Virus record (IMG/VR): IMGVR_UViG_3300007509_000057
Coordinates: 1-25,466 of that record
Origin: a virus
Reading direction: 5' to 3' (one strand)
DNA length: 25,466 bases
Each line of letters starts with the position of its first letter. The stretch's first letter is position 1. The position numbers were made by a program, and so were the translations under genes. Under the pieces are notes generated by a model. That model saw only the letters and a program-made list of their open reading frames with translations. It was not told the DNA's origin and ran no database searches. This document shows positions 2,930-17,539 of the stretch, in pieces.

Positions 2930-3152
2930 GCCAGTGAGTTACGCAATTAGCATGTTCGAGGAGGGCATCTGCCTAAACCCGAAGGAGTACGTGCTCGACG
3001 GGCCAGACGGTGACGTGATGCTTTTCGAGAAGCCGGGGGATGCCGTCGCATACCTTCGGTCAGTTTGGAAAGATATGCCGAAAGACGCGTCTGACATTGA
3101 TGAGTACGGCATTTTCATTGAGCCTTATGGCGAGGAGGACGACGATGACTGA
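2922..3152 (+). CDS. hypothetical protein with acidic tail
   Basis: A 76-residue protein of unknown function. The start at 2922 overlaps the previous gene and follows GGAGGACGAGG. The body is mixed alpha/beta, with helix AVAYLRSVWKDM, and it ends EEDDDD. The codons of this tail, GAGGAGGACGACGATGA, contain the GAGGAGG binding site and the ATG of the next gene. The protein tail and the downstream translation signal are therefore the same DNA. Confidence 0.7.
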   Translation: MSKPVSYAISMFEEGICLNPKEYVLDGPDGDVMLFEKPGDAVAYLRSVWKDMPKDASDIDEYGIFIEPYGEEDDDD

Positions 3153-11194: not shown

Positions 11195-11269
11195 GTGAAA
11201 CGGGATGAGTTAGAGTCGGTTAGACGCAGGCAGTGGCTTGCGATGTTGGAGGAGGTGGCGTTATGCTGA
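11195..11269 (+). CDS. 24-residue ORF coupled to integrase
   Basis: GTG at 11195 lies five bases after AAGGAGGAC, a much better initiation site than most here, and reads MKRDELESVRRRQWLAMLEEVALC. It ends at 11269, after the integrase ATG at 11263, so its translation would deliver ribosomes to the integrase start, whose own binding site GGAGGAGG lies inside this frame. It may be a leader peptide that sets integrase level, or a small Arg-rich protein such as an excisionase-like remnant. Confidence 0.5.
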   Translation: MKRDELESVRRRQWLAMLEEVALC

Positions 11270-13067: not shown

Positions 13068-14764
13068 ATATTTTCGTACAGCGGAAGCAGGTCTTCTGGA
13101 ATCTGCTCCTTCGCTTCAGTATATGTTTTGAATTTGTCCCAGCCAAAGTGTTTTCTTAGTCCACCGACTTGGTTGCCACTGGCATCTCTCTGACCGTTCG
13201 CCCAATTCTCAACCCAGTCCATTCTTTGATTGGCTTGGATACGTTTTAGTTCGAGTTCCCTAAGTCTATACTCCATTGCCCTAAGTTCTTTTTCTCGATG
13301 GCTTAGTTTTACGCGGCTTAAACGTAAATCTCCCTTTATTTCTTCGGGGGGTATGCTTGCTTTGAATCTGTTTATCTCCGGCAGTAAAGAATTGATTTCG
13401 TCTGAGAGTCTGAAGTAATCAGCCTCCGTTTCTTTCCAGTAAGCCGCCATTTCTTTGGCGAGGTCGTCGTCGCTCTGGAAAATTCTTTTGGTATCACGGG
13501 CCATGATGTCGGCTTGCTCATCGGCTTCGGCTTTCAGGTAGCGCGCCATTGTTGCAGGGGCATCGAGCACGCCGTCTTCGTCAACAACTTTCAAATCGGC
13601 CATCTCTGGATACCAGTCATCGATGCGAGGCTCATCAAACCAACCCTGCATCCTCATTTCATGCCATTCTTCTGGATCAAGAGTACCTTCTTCTGCTTGT
13701 TTAGTTGCTCTTTGCAAATAAGATTCGTCTAACAGTTCGCTGTCCAGAGACTCTAGGTAGTCTTGGGTTTCACGCCAGTCAAGTCGGCCACCTCTTTCTT
13801 GAGGGCCGATGTCGTGCAGGCTATCGGATAGCAGTTCGGGGTGGGACTCTGCTTGTTTAGTAGACGTGCGCTCAATGCCTTTGCGCTTTGCGGCCCAGTC
13901 TAGGAAGTCGGAGTAGTTTCCTGCTTCCTCGAATAATGTTTTGTAGCCGTCGCGCGAATTGGGATGCTTGAACGCATCCAAGGCGAATTCGCCCTCTCGC
14001 CAACCTCTTTCGTCTAACATGACTGAAGTTTGGGCTTTCTTGCCAGAAGATTTCTCGATCAACCCTTCGGCTATGTCCCAACCGCCCCAGTGTCGGAGTT
14101 CCGCTCCAGTGCTGGCGTGCGTTGCGGCTGATGCGAGGGGTGCGTGCGCTATGGTGGCGGCGTCCTTTGCGAATTCGCCAACGAGTGGCGCGCCCTTCTT
14201 TACGATAGTTGAGATGGCGGGTGCGCCGATGATGGCGGCGGCTGTGCCTAAGCCTACGTTGCGCATGGCTTCGCGTCTTGATGGATCGTGCTTGTGGACT
14301 TTGTCCCGTAGCATAGGGGCGGGCGAGTGCAGGAAATCCATAGTGCGGGCGTAGAGGTCATCGAGGGCCGCGCCGATAGCGGAGCCAGCCTTGGAGTCGG
14401 CTATGGCTTGGAGCGCAGGATCAGCGGCGATCTTGCCAGAGCGATATAGGAACTGGCCAAGTGGTGTGGCTGTGGCTGTGAGTCCCAGTTCGAGATAGTC
14501 TTGGAAGTCGAGTTCTTGTTGGTTCGCGGCTTTGTTGATAGGGCGGGAAAATACGCCGCCGATGAAGCCAAGGGGGTAGCCGGGTAGGCCGTAGCGATTC
14601 GTGAACTCTTGGCGGGATACGTCGTCCGACCAGAACTCATCGCTCATGCGTCGCATGTCTTTGGTAAGCCAGTCGGTTAGTGCGGAGACTGGGTTGTTCG
14701 GGGCGTAGAACTGGTGCTCGCCTTCGTATGTTTTGCCTGTGACGGGGGAGGTGTATGAAGGCAT
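13064..14764 (-). CDS. late-type virion-associated protein, unknown
   Basis: A 566-residue protein. The N-terminal third is Pro/Tyr/Phe-rich with hydrophobic helices, and a strongly apolar Ala/Gly stretch about residues 172-225 (NVGLGTAAAIIGAPAIS) could be membrane-active. The rest is acidic, with coiled-coil-like helices near 455-545. I recognise no domain. The length, mixed composition and position beside an HExxH protein on the minus strand suit an internal virion or injected protein, but this is inference. The ATG at 14764 follows the upstream stop by two bases (TAGCCATG). Confidence 0.7.
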   Translation of the reverse strand: MPSYTSPVTGKTYEGEHQFYAPNNPVSALTDWLTKDMRRMSDEFWSDDVSRQEFTNRYGLPGYPLGFIGGVFSRPINKAANQQELDFQDYLELGLTATATPLGQFLYRSGKIAADPALQAIADSKAGSAIGAALDDLYARTMDFLHSPAPMLRDKVHKHDPSRREAMRNVGLGTAAAIIGAPAISTIVKKGAPLVGEFAKDAATIAHAPLASAATHASTGAELRHWGGWDIAEGLIEKSSGKKAQTSVMLDERGWREGEFALDAFKHPNSRDGYKTLFEEAGNYSDFLDWAAKRKGIERTSTKQAESHPELLSDSLHDIGPQERGGRLDWRETQDYLESLDSELLDESYLQRATKQAEEGTLDPEEWHEMRMQGWFDEPRIDDWYPEMADLKVVDEDGVLDAPATMARYLKAEADEQADIMARDTKRIFQSDDDLAKEMAAYWKETEADYFRLSDEINSLLPEINRFKASIPPEEIKGDLRLSRVKLSHREKELRAMEYRLRELELKRIQANQRMDWVENWANGQRDASGNQVGGLRKHFGWDKFKTYTEAKEQIPEDLLPLYENI

Positions 14765-14766
14765 GG

Positions 14767-15411
14767 CTAGTTAAAGAGCGACAGCATTGCGTTCGCATCT
14801 TCCACGAGGGGTGCGGCTTCTCCATGTTCTGAAAGCCACATGTTTGCCTGCTTTCGTGATTCTTCGCCCCCATATATTAGATCGTAGTTACGCATCAAGG
14901 TTTCTTCTTCTGCTTTAGTCAGGTTTAGTTCCGATCCAATAGTTCTATCGTATCCGCGATGGCGAAACTCGTGACGCCATGTATCATTTGGCGTGGGATC
15001 GGAATTAGAGTTGAACAGCGCGACGATGTCGCTACTACTCATCTCATCTCCTGTGTTCTCGACCCAGTTCTCGAAGCCCTGATCGTTGCGAAGCCAGTTG
15101 TTTTTTGAGAGTTTGTCGTAAAGTTTTTCGGGGCTTATTCCGTGGACTCGTGCCGCAAATTCAGCATCGCTTTGTAGGAAGGAGGAGGGCAAATTGTCAT
15201 GTTGCACTCCAGCGTGCGGCCAGAATACCCTGTCGTTCAAGCCAAGGTCGATGTACTCGGCTACGCCTGCGTCGACGCCATGTTTTAGGAGGGGGTCTGG
15301 CTCCATCCACGCGCCCGGTCTCGTGCGGGGCGTAAGCATTTCCATTTCAAATTCCATGTCTCCGAATAGTTCGGAGTAGTATTGCTTGAGACCGAATTCG
15401 TCAGACCACAT
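14767..15411 (-). CDS. putative HExxH metallopeptidase, virion-associated
   Basis: A 214-residue protein with TWRHEFRHRGYDRTIG, giving HExxH at residues 147-151 followed by RG, the pattern of zincin-type zinc peptidases. A Glu-rich stretch (LTKAEEE, 164-170) is a plausible third ligand region. Similar HExxHxG segments occur in phage virion or polyvalent proteins. The N-terminal 140 residues are of unknown type. It lies directly upstream of the 566-aa gene with a two-base gap, so the two are probably expressed and packaged together. The catalytic call rests only on the motif. Confidence 0.6.
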   Translation of the reverse strand: MWSDEFGLKQYYSELFGDMEFEMEMLTPRTRPGAWMEPDPLLKHGVDAGVAEYIDLGLNDRVFWPHAGVQHDNLPSSFLQSDAEFAARVHGISPEKLYDKLSKNNWLRNDQGFENWVENTGDEMSSSDIVALFNSNSDPTPNDTWRHEFRHRGYDRTIGSELNLTKAEEETLMRNYDLIYGGEESRKQANMWLSEHGEAAPLVEDANAMLSLFN

Positions 15412-16082: not shown

Positions 16083-16450
16083 GAAGTGCCTTCTTCGAGT
16101 TCCTGTAAGTAAGATGCGTAAAGAGTGGTGAAGTCCGACAGAGTTAGGAGGACGTAGGCGTCGTCAATGGCTTGGCGGTTCCGGCGGTTGACGACAACTG
16201 GGATCGAGTCTGCTGGGGCGTTGGCTTGGGCTTGGCGGAGTGCTCCGGGGAAGTCGAGTTTTTCTACACGCTTGGCCTCGATGGATAAGCGGGGCAGGCC
16301 AGTGAGGTCTTCTTGCCCTTGGCCTCGGTCGTGGAACTGTTGGGTGAGGCAGGTGCGCCTGACTTCGAGGCCAGTTTTATCTCGGAAGTAGGCGGCGAGT
16401 TCGCGCTCGAAGGCGTGGCCCTTGGCTCGGATGGTCTTGACGTTAGGCAT
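16079..16450 (-). CDS. PD-(D/E)XK endonuclease / Holliday-junction resolvase-like
   Basis: A 123-residue protein. KGHAFERELAAYFRD supplies the first-helix Glu (E15), EDLTGLPRLSIEAKRVE the D48...E58-x-K60 core, and IPVVVNRR a following strand. This order is typical of phage PD-(D/E)XK endonucleases and Hjc-like resolvases, which cleave branched DNA during recombination and packaging. The ATG at 16450 is preferred, with GGAG at seven bases. A TTG one codon earlier also reads open. It overlaps the stop of the upstream HTH/zinc gene. Confidence 0.8.
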   Translation of the reverse strand: MPNVKTIRAKGHAFERELAAYFRDKTGLEVRRTCLTQQFHDRGQGQEDLTGLPRLSIEAKRVEKLDFPGALRQAQANAPADSIPVVVNRRNRQAIDDAYVLLTLSDFTTLYASYLQELEEGTS

Positions 16451-16745
16451 CAAGGTCTCCGGTGCGTTGGCGTTTCTTACAGCGGTTGCATACGTACTGC
16501 CACTTGGGTCGTGGCTTGGTTGTCTTGCAAATTAGACAGGGGCGTGTCCACTTTTCAGTTCGCCTACTCTCAGCCACGACATACTTTGCGGCGTCGTAGT
16601 GGGCGAGACCTTCTCGCATGAGGATGCGGCGCAACGTGTCTACGCAACAGCCAATGTGGTCTGCTAGTTCTTGCTCAGTTTTCTTGTCTTTGTTCGCTTT
16701 GAGCCAACGCACTTGGGTTGCGGAGAGTTGGATTCTCCGTCCCAT
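16443..16745 (-). CDS. HTH and zinc-ribbon regulator
   Basis: A 100-residue protein with two parts. Residues 8-45 look like a homeodomain-type helix-turn-helix (ATQVRWLKANKDKKTEQELADHIG, then CVDTLRRILMREGL). Residues 69-95 form a CxxC...CxxC zinc ribbon (CLICKTTKPRPKWQYVCNRC). It is likely a DNA-binding regulator and is the first gene of the minus-strand operon, ten bases from the -10 of its promoter. It could therefore regulate that promoter itself. An exact copy of the CGTGGCTTGG word lies within it (16510-16519). Confidence 0.75.
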   Translation of the reverse strand: MGRRIQLSATQVRWLKANKDKKTEQELADHIGCCVDTLRRILMREGLAHYDAAKYVVAESRRTEKWTRPCLICKTTKPRPKWQYVCNRCKKRQRTGDLDA

Positions 16746-16754
16746 TGGGCGCGC

Positions 16755-16783
16755 AATATAAAGGGCGGGGAAGGGGTGGTCAA
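16755..16783 (-). promoter_or_regulatory. sigma70-type promoter of minus-strand operon
   Basis: On the minus strand, -35 TTGACC (16783-16778), 17-base spacer, -10 TATATT (16760-16755). The transcript would start near 16748 with almost no leader. It drives the HTH/zinc gene, two nucleases, DUF3310 and the virion genes. Its -35 is part of TTGACCACCC, also found at the two plus promoters at 16905 and 17131. Confidence 0.8.
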
Positions 16784-16824: not shown

Positions 16825-16843
16825 GACACCCGTCAGGGGTGTC
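16825..16843. promoter_or_regulatory. palindromic operator candidate
   Basis: GACACCC-GTCAG-GGGTGTC, seven-base arms with five-base centre. It has the same half-site GGGTGTC as the operators at 4467 and 11042, but the arms are in the outward order. It lies between the minus promoter and the small-RNA promoter. Confidence 0.55.
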
Positions 16844-16904: not shown

Positions 16905-16933
16905 TTGACCACCCTAACTTTTTCCTGTAAAAT
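16905..16933 (+). promoter_or_regulatory. sigma70-type promoter of candidate small RNA
   Basis: -35 TTGACC (16905-16910), 17-base spacer, -10 TAAAAT (16928-16933), start expected near 16940. No gene follows before the terminator at 17084-17115, so its product should be a short RNA of about 175 nt. Confidence 0.8.
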
Positions 16934-16934
16934 C

Positions 16935-17115
16935 GCTTTCGCTGTTTCTCTGTAGCGCTTGCTCTGCTTCACCCCTTACAGGGTTCAGCAGAGAAGTATC
17001 AAAGATACTCTAGTATAGTAGTACCGTGCGATACAGCGAAAGTGAGAACCAGCATTTTCATGACTCCTCCTCTGTAGTTATTCGGCCCGCCCTAAACAAG
17101 CGGGCCTCTTTTTTT
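16935..17115 (+). ncRNA. candidate structured small RNA
   Basis: The segment has a strong promoter, a terminator and no open frame with a binding site. Its outer arms pair over 11-12 bases (16935-16945 with 17033-17043). Inside is a two-part hairpin (CTCTGCT 16962-16968 with AGCAGAG 16987-16993, inner ACCC/GGGT) and a hairpin AGTATC-AAA-GATACT (16995-17009). Between the outer stem and the terminator, GACTCCTCCTCTG (17062-17074) is unpaired in this fold and resembles an anti-Shine-Dalgarno sequence. If transcription starts near 16940 the outer stem loses its first four or five pairs. It does not match the rod shape of 6S RNA or any RNA I recognise. Confidence 0.55.
17084..17115 (+). terminator. 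rho-independent terminator
   Basis: A perfect 7-bp stem GGCCCGC/GCGGGCC (17084-17090 with 17100-17106), a nine-base loop and TCTTTTTTT. It ends the candidate small RNA. Confidence 0.92.
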
Positions 17116-17130
17116 GTACCTCAAAAGGTA

Positions 17131-17160
17131 TTGACCACCCACCCAAAGGTGTCTTACACT
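17131..17160 (+). promoter_or_regulatory. promoter of zinc-ribbon/lipoprotein operon
   Basis: -35 TTGACC (17131-17136), 18-base spacer, -10 TACACT (17155-17160). The sequence AAGGTGT-CTT-ACACTT over the -10 is an imperfect palindrome that reuses the GGTGT half-site. It shares TTGACCACCC with the two nearby promoters. Confidence 0.6.
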
Positions 17161-17272
17161 TCGTACCGCTCATGCTCAGGTCGAGTCGGATACGCCCACT
17201 CCTGTTCTTTTCGACCCGCGCGTGCCGGGTCTCCTCCGACAGCACGCACCCTTTTCACAACTTGGTGGTGAC

Positions 17273-17539
17273 ATGACAGAAAACACTTTCGTTTGCCGGG
17301 TTTGCGGATCGCGGCAGTTTTTCCACGCCGGGGTGTCAAGTCGGGGATTCCTGACGCAAGGCGAGGGGGATCGGGAGCCTCAGATCAACTATGAGCAGGT
17401 GCACCTGTATGGGTGCGCTAGTTGTACGGCCCTGTTCCTGTTGCCGCAGGCGTTCAGTGCGGTGGACAAGATCGAGCCGCCCGATGAGGACGAACTGCCA
17501 CCTTCCACTCATCCAAGCCACGAAGCGGAGGACGACTAA
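17273..17539 (+). CDS. small zinc-ribbon protein
   Basis: An 88-residue protein with CRVCGSRQF near residue 8 and CASCTALF near 49, two CxxC pairs spaced as in a zinc ribbon, then an acidic Pro/Glu/Asp tail. It is not otherwise recognised. The ATG at 17273 has only a weak binding site (GGTGGTGA). It is the first gene of a three-gene operon with two lipoproteins. The stop TAA shares its last base with the next ATG, and CCAAGCCACG occurs at 17513-17522 near its end. Confidence 0.7.
   Translation: MTENTFVCRVCGSRQFFHAGVSSRGFLTQGEGDREPQINYEQVHLYGCASCTALFLLPQAFSAVDKIEPPDEDELPPSTHPSHEAEDD

Follow-up and report, generated by a model that had tools for sequence, protein, structure and literature searches.

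In phage T4, the genes e, soc, 49 and I-TevI possess leaders in which a longer RNA, initiated upstream, covers the translation start with a stem, and a late promoter inside the 5' strand of this stem gives rise to an RNA that lacks the strand and is translated (PMC3014915, PMC2988022). In Frpo, the -35, the -10 and UP are all mirrored (PMC11541004), and the extrusion of the N4 promoter hairpin requires a loop with 5'G and 3'A that is closed by C:G (PMC4496689). NfeR1/alpha-r14 are alphaproteobacterial anti-Shine-Dalgarno (anti-SD) small RNAs (sRNAs) that act in trans and carry CCUCCUCCC loops (PMC10746234, PMC3927594).

The window, i.e. the whole stretch of 25,466 bases analysed here (an IMG/VR virus record), is a fragment of a marine roseophage of the CRP-810 type. 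Over 98% of its length, the Prim-Pol/helicase has 50% identity to the counterpart in Roseobacter phage CRP-810, the founder of a family that comprises 251 related genomes of marine viruses (PMC11288001), and both share the gene order cobS-cobT, integrase, Holliday-junction resolvase, Prim-Pol, AAA ATPase and PD-(D/E)XK nuclease.

As in the T4 leaders, a promoter of this phage lies within the DNA for the 5' strand of a long-range stem, the stem overlaps the extended -10 family-wide (30 of 58 loci, see below), and the 3' strand is found at a translation start in most relatives. In contrast to T4 with its late promoter, the promoter is of the host sigma70 type, some 85 nt separate the two arms, with a nested multi-hairpin between them, the 3' arm is without a Shine-Dalgarno (SD) sequence, and no sense-strand gene lies directly upstream. 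In the window itself the 3' strand covers neither a ribosome-binding site nor a start codon, and a terminator instead of a gene comes after it. The stem over the promoter was overlooked in the preliminary description of the locus, which stressed an anti-SD tract; it is the more deeply conserved feature, and it occurs in relatives without tract or terminator. A folding switch that depends on the transcription start site is, to judge from the sequences, the most likely explanation, with a probability of roughly 0.4.

The likely transcription unit and its close relatives

Positions 16905-17116 are likely a small RNA gene encoding a stand-alone short RNA (Table 1). A clean promoter, a terminator and the lack of a gene had been claimed for this unit, and all three were recovered: the -35 and -10 boxes are 17 nt apart, an untranslated stretch of ~176 nt separates promoter and terminator, and no convincing gene is present between the HTH gene on the minus strand and a Zn-ribbon gene on the plus strand (~17273-17539). 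The position of the -10 box places the expected start of the RNA at ~16940-16941.

Table 1. Features of the RNA locus and its surroundings in the window
Feature	Positions	Strand	Remarks
HTH plus CxxC/CxxC protein gene	16443-16745	-	neighbour of the RNA; marker for finding relatives
RNA promoter TTGACC-17 nt-TAAAAT	16905-16933	+	-35 at 16905-16910, -10 at 16928-16933; sigma70-type
Long-range stem, left arm TCGCTTTCGCTGT	16933-16945	+	first base is the last base of the -10 box
Central hairpin CTCTGCT..AGCAGAG, inner ACCC/GGGT	16962-16993	+	among 6 relatives, both bases changed in six pairs
Small hairpin AGTATC-AAA-GATACT	16995-17009	+	kept in L007, altered in others
Long-range stem, right arm ACAGCGAAAGTGA	17033-17045	+	in predictions, paired in read-through RNA but partly free in the own-start RNA
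Anti-SD-type tract CTCCTCCTC	17064-17072	+	CCTCC in 4/6, CTCC in 5/6 of the subgroup
Intrinsic terminator GGCCCGC..GCGGGCC plus T-tract	17084-17115	+	present here in 6/6 subgroup members
Second promoter P2, TTGACC-18-TACACT, with operator-like ACACCCAAAGGTGT	17131-17160	+	putative promoter of the next gene, from sequence

The RNA has a predicted folding energy of -60.4 kcal/mol, compared to -41.2 +/- 3.7 kcal/mol in shuffled sequences (z = -5.2), and none of 200 shuffles folds as well. The arms CTTTCGCTGT and ACAGCGAAAG form ten perfect pairs (16936-16945 with 17033-17042), a number reached by none of 60 crude shuffles. The multi-hairpin body of the earlier account is thus supported, but its closing stem has to be placed differently: with one G.T pair included, the stem reaches 16933, where the -10 box ends, and lies mostly outside an RNA that begins at the expected start. 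An RNA starting at ~16940 would retain six bases of the left arm, about half of it, and is predicted to close by GCUG-UUCUC/GAGAA-CAGC instead, whereas the full long-range stem is predicted for window RNAs that start at or before 16934.

A search with the HTH gene yielded six viral contigs, and the whole unit is found at the same place in five distinct relatives (L002, L003, L004, L007 and L006, the last with the near-copy L005). The promoter reads TTGACC-17-TA(A/C)A(A/C)T in L002, L003 and L007, and is kept as TTGAC in L004 and L006. In an alignment of the window with these five, the three helices have 91.7% paired cells and eight pairs changed on both sides, so that the compensatory changes in related phages asked for by the preliminary description do exist; the covariation score is 0.224 versus 0.090 in shuffles (0 of 500 as high). 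Matched changes include a C-G pair of the left arm that is T-A in L006, and the central hairpin CTCTGCT/AGCAGAG, which is ATCTGCT/AGCAGAT in L004 and ATCTCTG/CAGAGAT in L006. Because the unit, the covariation and the terminator are kept in all six, a stand-alone RNA is well supported in the window subgroup. That the window should carry a relic of a leader or attenuator without present function would agree with the restriction of the free-standing form to these six relatives, but covariation within the six and the conservation of promoter and terminator speak against such decay, and we regard it as very improbable.

No DNA match to the RNA region was found among 50,697 phage records. At the gathering score, an Rfam scan retrieved no family in the window and, in the relatives scanned, only a tRNA in CRP-810; the structure of the HTH protein had no significant match in the PDB.

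Several further elements surround the unit. Ten bases, TTGACCACCC, are common to the HTH promoter (minus strand, 16774-16783), the RNA promoter (16905-16914) and P2 (17131-17140), in all three located over and after the -35, which suggests a common control of these promoters. The promoters of the HTH gene and of the RNA have a hairpin between them (GACACCC-GTCAG-GGGTGTC, 16825-16843), with matched stem changes in relatives, and a similar hairpin is present near the HTH promoter in distant loci (e.g. L014-L020). The leader of the Zn-ribbon gene contains an H-type pseudoknot (17215-17247), in which a CCCG/CGGG stem carries the loop GCGTGC that pairs with a downstream GCACGC; in six relatives 60 of 60 cells are paired, L004 and L006 show matched changes such as GAGCGC/GCGCTC, and Rfam has no match for it in the window.

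The CU-rich tract and possible pairing in trans

The preliminary description proposed that the tract GACTCCTCCTCTG (17062-17074) is unpaired and down-regulates phage genes by pairing with their ribosome-binding sites. Such sites do occur in the window, with GAGGAGG at 3132 and 4012 and GGAGGAGG at 11248. The tract, however, is predicted to be free only over 17068-17074 (mean unpaired probability 0.86); over its whole length it is about half-paired (0.55). In L004, L006 and L007 the corresponding probability is 0.81-0.98. These three and the window (4 of 6) possess CCTCC between the right arm and the terminator, a count reached in none of 2000 shuffles; the tail of L003 has CTCC only, and that of L002 CCTC only, neither CCTCC nor CTCC. 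Duplexes of -10 kcal/mol or better are predicted with 29 of 40 gene starts, compared to 254 of 600 random windows (42%). The tract thus favours gene starts, but the preference is unspecific, because any anti-SD word would show the same, and the targets are merely the genes with a strong SD.

A trans-acting sRNA, whose CU tract would block ribosome-binding sites of phage or host mRNAs, is therefore a possible but rather doubtful function. It would fit a free-standing unit of promoter and terminator without an ORF, with the terminator retained in six members, as well as the recurrence of CCTCC in four of the six tails and the predicted accessibility of the tract in L004, L006 and L007, and RNAs of this kind are established in Alphaproteobacteria, e.g. 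NfeR1/alpha-r14 (PMC10746234, PMC3927594). Like these, the window RNA is free-standing and combines a terminator with a CU-rich anti-SD word. Unlike them, with their three identical loops, it has a single variable tract, placed in a weak hairpin before the terminator, it is encoded by a phage, and the tract is not universal among relatives. The loss of the tract in L002 and its shortening in L003, its half-free state in the window, a target set that amounts to the strong-SD genes, and the lack of such a tail in most family members all weigh against this function. For the window subgroup it is compatible with a start-site switch.

The best Rfam match, a weak one, was RF02278 (Betaproteobacteria toxic small RNA; 33 bits versus a gathering score of 50), which was not accepted. 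The window shares with it a CTCC word followed by a terminator (17061-17113), but the first hairpin of RF02278 is unmatched in the window, and that RNA belongs to a different clade.

A mirrored -10 box in the wider family

Two further scans extended the sample to ~150 loci with HTH homologues, redundant copies included. In 58 non-redundant upstream regions promoters were picked blind, by consensus alone, and the 12-mer beginning three bases before the -10 was compared with the sequence 95-135 nt downstream, where a reverse complement of at least 11 of 12 bases was accepted as partner. The extended -10 is mirrored in this way (11 or 12 of 12) in 30 of the 58 loci, by 14 distinct sequences. The same count is 0 at nearly all sampled offsets outside -3 to +12, and no mirroring is seen at the -35 offset in these loci. 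Among 19 versions of the 12-bp arms, 97.8% of cells are paired, a percentage biased upward by the choice of the best match as partner (the position peak is unbiased), and nine of the twelve positions have changed on both sides; the three invariant positions (T, A and A) belong to the -10 itself. The window subgroup represents an offset form, in which the arms begin at the end of the -10 and not, as elsewhere, before it.

Enclosed by the arms are smaller hairpins and a central one, in which a single mismatch often stands ~7 bp below the loop. This mismatch is kept in many families with differing bases (C.T, A.C, T.C, A.A; e.g. L060, L040, L156), which suggests a bound protein. Outside this gene neighbourhood, scans with two patterns returned only chance matches in the loci examined, and the exact arm pair occurs once in CRP-810. 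In the CRP-810 record, 14021-14817 is without annotation; this stretch includes the fold at the promoter (14439-14552) and, on the minus strand, the HTH gene (14044-14316). A small ORF on the plus strand (MNQKQKLL...) begins there at ~14565 and continues into the region of the primase gene.

The arms are inverted versions of a single sequence, located at a promoter next to an HTH gene, and could be taken for two operators of a phage regulator such as the HTH protein. Yet the arm sequence varies freely (at least 14 versions), whereas the HTH helix GCCVDTL-RIL is nearly invariant; the exact arm is found in CRP-810 only as this pair, and changes are matched between the arms. With arms that vary freely and are unique in the genome, we rejected operators as the least probable explanation of all.

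In 49 of 56 elements, what comes after the right arm is not a terminator but a start codon on the plus strand, in nearly all at a distance of 2-38 nt (mostly 10-22, a few further). Between right arm and start codon no SD sequence was seen in the elements read; in most families (L035-L169) a short ATACA-like word stands 6-7 nt past the right arm, just before the start codon. The remaining seven elements, i.e. the six window-group members and L068, have a terminator after the right arm. The genes that follow vary and encode a small KYPEIA protein, a RuvC-like protein, a Zn-ribbon protein or a nuclease; the element is therefore tied to the promoter and not to one gene. The wider distribution of the leader form would imply that a leader became a free RNA in the window subgroup.

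Proposed start-site-dependent folding in RNA or folding of DNA

With RNA energies, 25 of 29 elements have a better fold in the plus strand than in the minus strand (p = 5e-4); with DNA energies the same holds for 21 of 28 untied elements. When wobble pairs are left out of the definition of a helix, single mismatches inside helices are more often G.T (13) than A.C (5). The folded molecule is therefore probably the plus strand, either as RNA or as single-stranded DNA. A cruciform, with both strands paired, had been the first reading and is weakened by the same two observations.

If the folded molecule is RNA, a start-site switch would operate as follows. Since the -10 and start region is occupied by one of the two arms of the closing stem, the full stem would form only in RNA begun upstream, while RNA from the own promoter would lack most of the left arm, fold otherwise and leave the 3' arm partly free. 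In most relatives, where this arm stands just ahead of a start codon without SD sequence, only transcripts from the own promoter would then be translated; in the window subgroup, with a terminator in place of the gene start, a free RNA would result, whose CU-rich tail may pair with ribosome-binding sites. Over 25 families, the right arm has a predicted unpaired probability of 0.07 if the RNA is a read-through product, compared to 0.43 if it begins at the own start (p = 2e-5); the corresponding values in the window group are 0.06 and 0.42. This contrast is partly built in, as the own-start RNA is by definition without the pairing arm. The 'timing switch' of the preliminary description may thus be right in spirit, through start-site-dependent folding rather than through the tract.

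Some observations count against such a switch. The right arm lies upstream of, and not over, any SD sequence, and the central hairpin is without G.T pairs (0 in 498 pairs; the terminators of these contigs have 21 in 411), which is unusual for RNA. The source of a read-through RNA is not obvious, because the upstream genes are on the other strand for ~4 kb. Moreover, the fold is kept where a terminator follows, and translation control can therefore not be its only use.

Alternatively, the non-template DNA strand might fold when the promoter melts or the plus strand is single, and act as a single-strand promoter, an R-loop lock or, beside the Prim-Pol helicase gene, a replication start. The expected start comes only after the end of the left arm in most families, so that the RNA of that promoter would form no stem; the arms are nearly wobble-free, and the central hairpin has no G.T pair at all; 12 of 24 triloops are of the GNA type, the class on which N4 promoter hairpins depend (PMC4496689); and the element is present in one copy, next to the Prim-Pol gene. 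As in Frpo/ssi and the N4 early promoters, a promoter sequence is mirrored, a single strand can fold on the -10, and GNA-type triloops occur. Unlike in Frpo/ssi, only the -10 is mirrored and the -35 is not, so that folding would not restore a double-stranded -35 and -10. The N4 hairpin, which serves the virion RNA polymerase, has a stem of 5-7 bp and a 3-nt loop centred at -11, whereas the stem around the -10 closes a 110-nt fold here, with no known single-stranded stage. The excess of G.T over A.C in helices and the regular place of start codons after the element likewise count against folded DNA, and the GC skew takes no consistent turn at the element and thus gives no support to a replication origin there. 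Folded DNA in general is unlikely. Slightly less probable still is its most specific form, a DNA device in which the non-template strand, displaced as the promoter is melted by host RNA polymerase, would adopt the fold of a conserved three-way junction, hold the promoter open or start replication beside the Prim-Pol gene, and leave the terminated RNA of the window as a by-product. If true, a promoter strand folded in DNA would be more unusual than a start-site switch.

The covariation is sufficient for building a searchable family, and CRP-810 has a cultured host, which makes these ideas directly testable. If start-site-dependent folding is the right explanation, the principle known from the T4 leaders would be used with a host-type promoter throughout an abundant family of marine phages, and would there have given rise to a free RNA.
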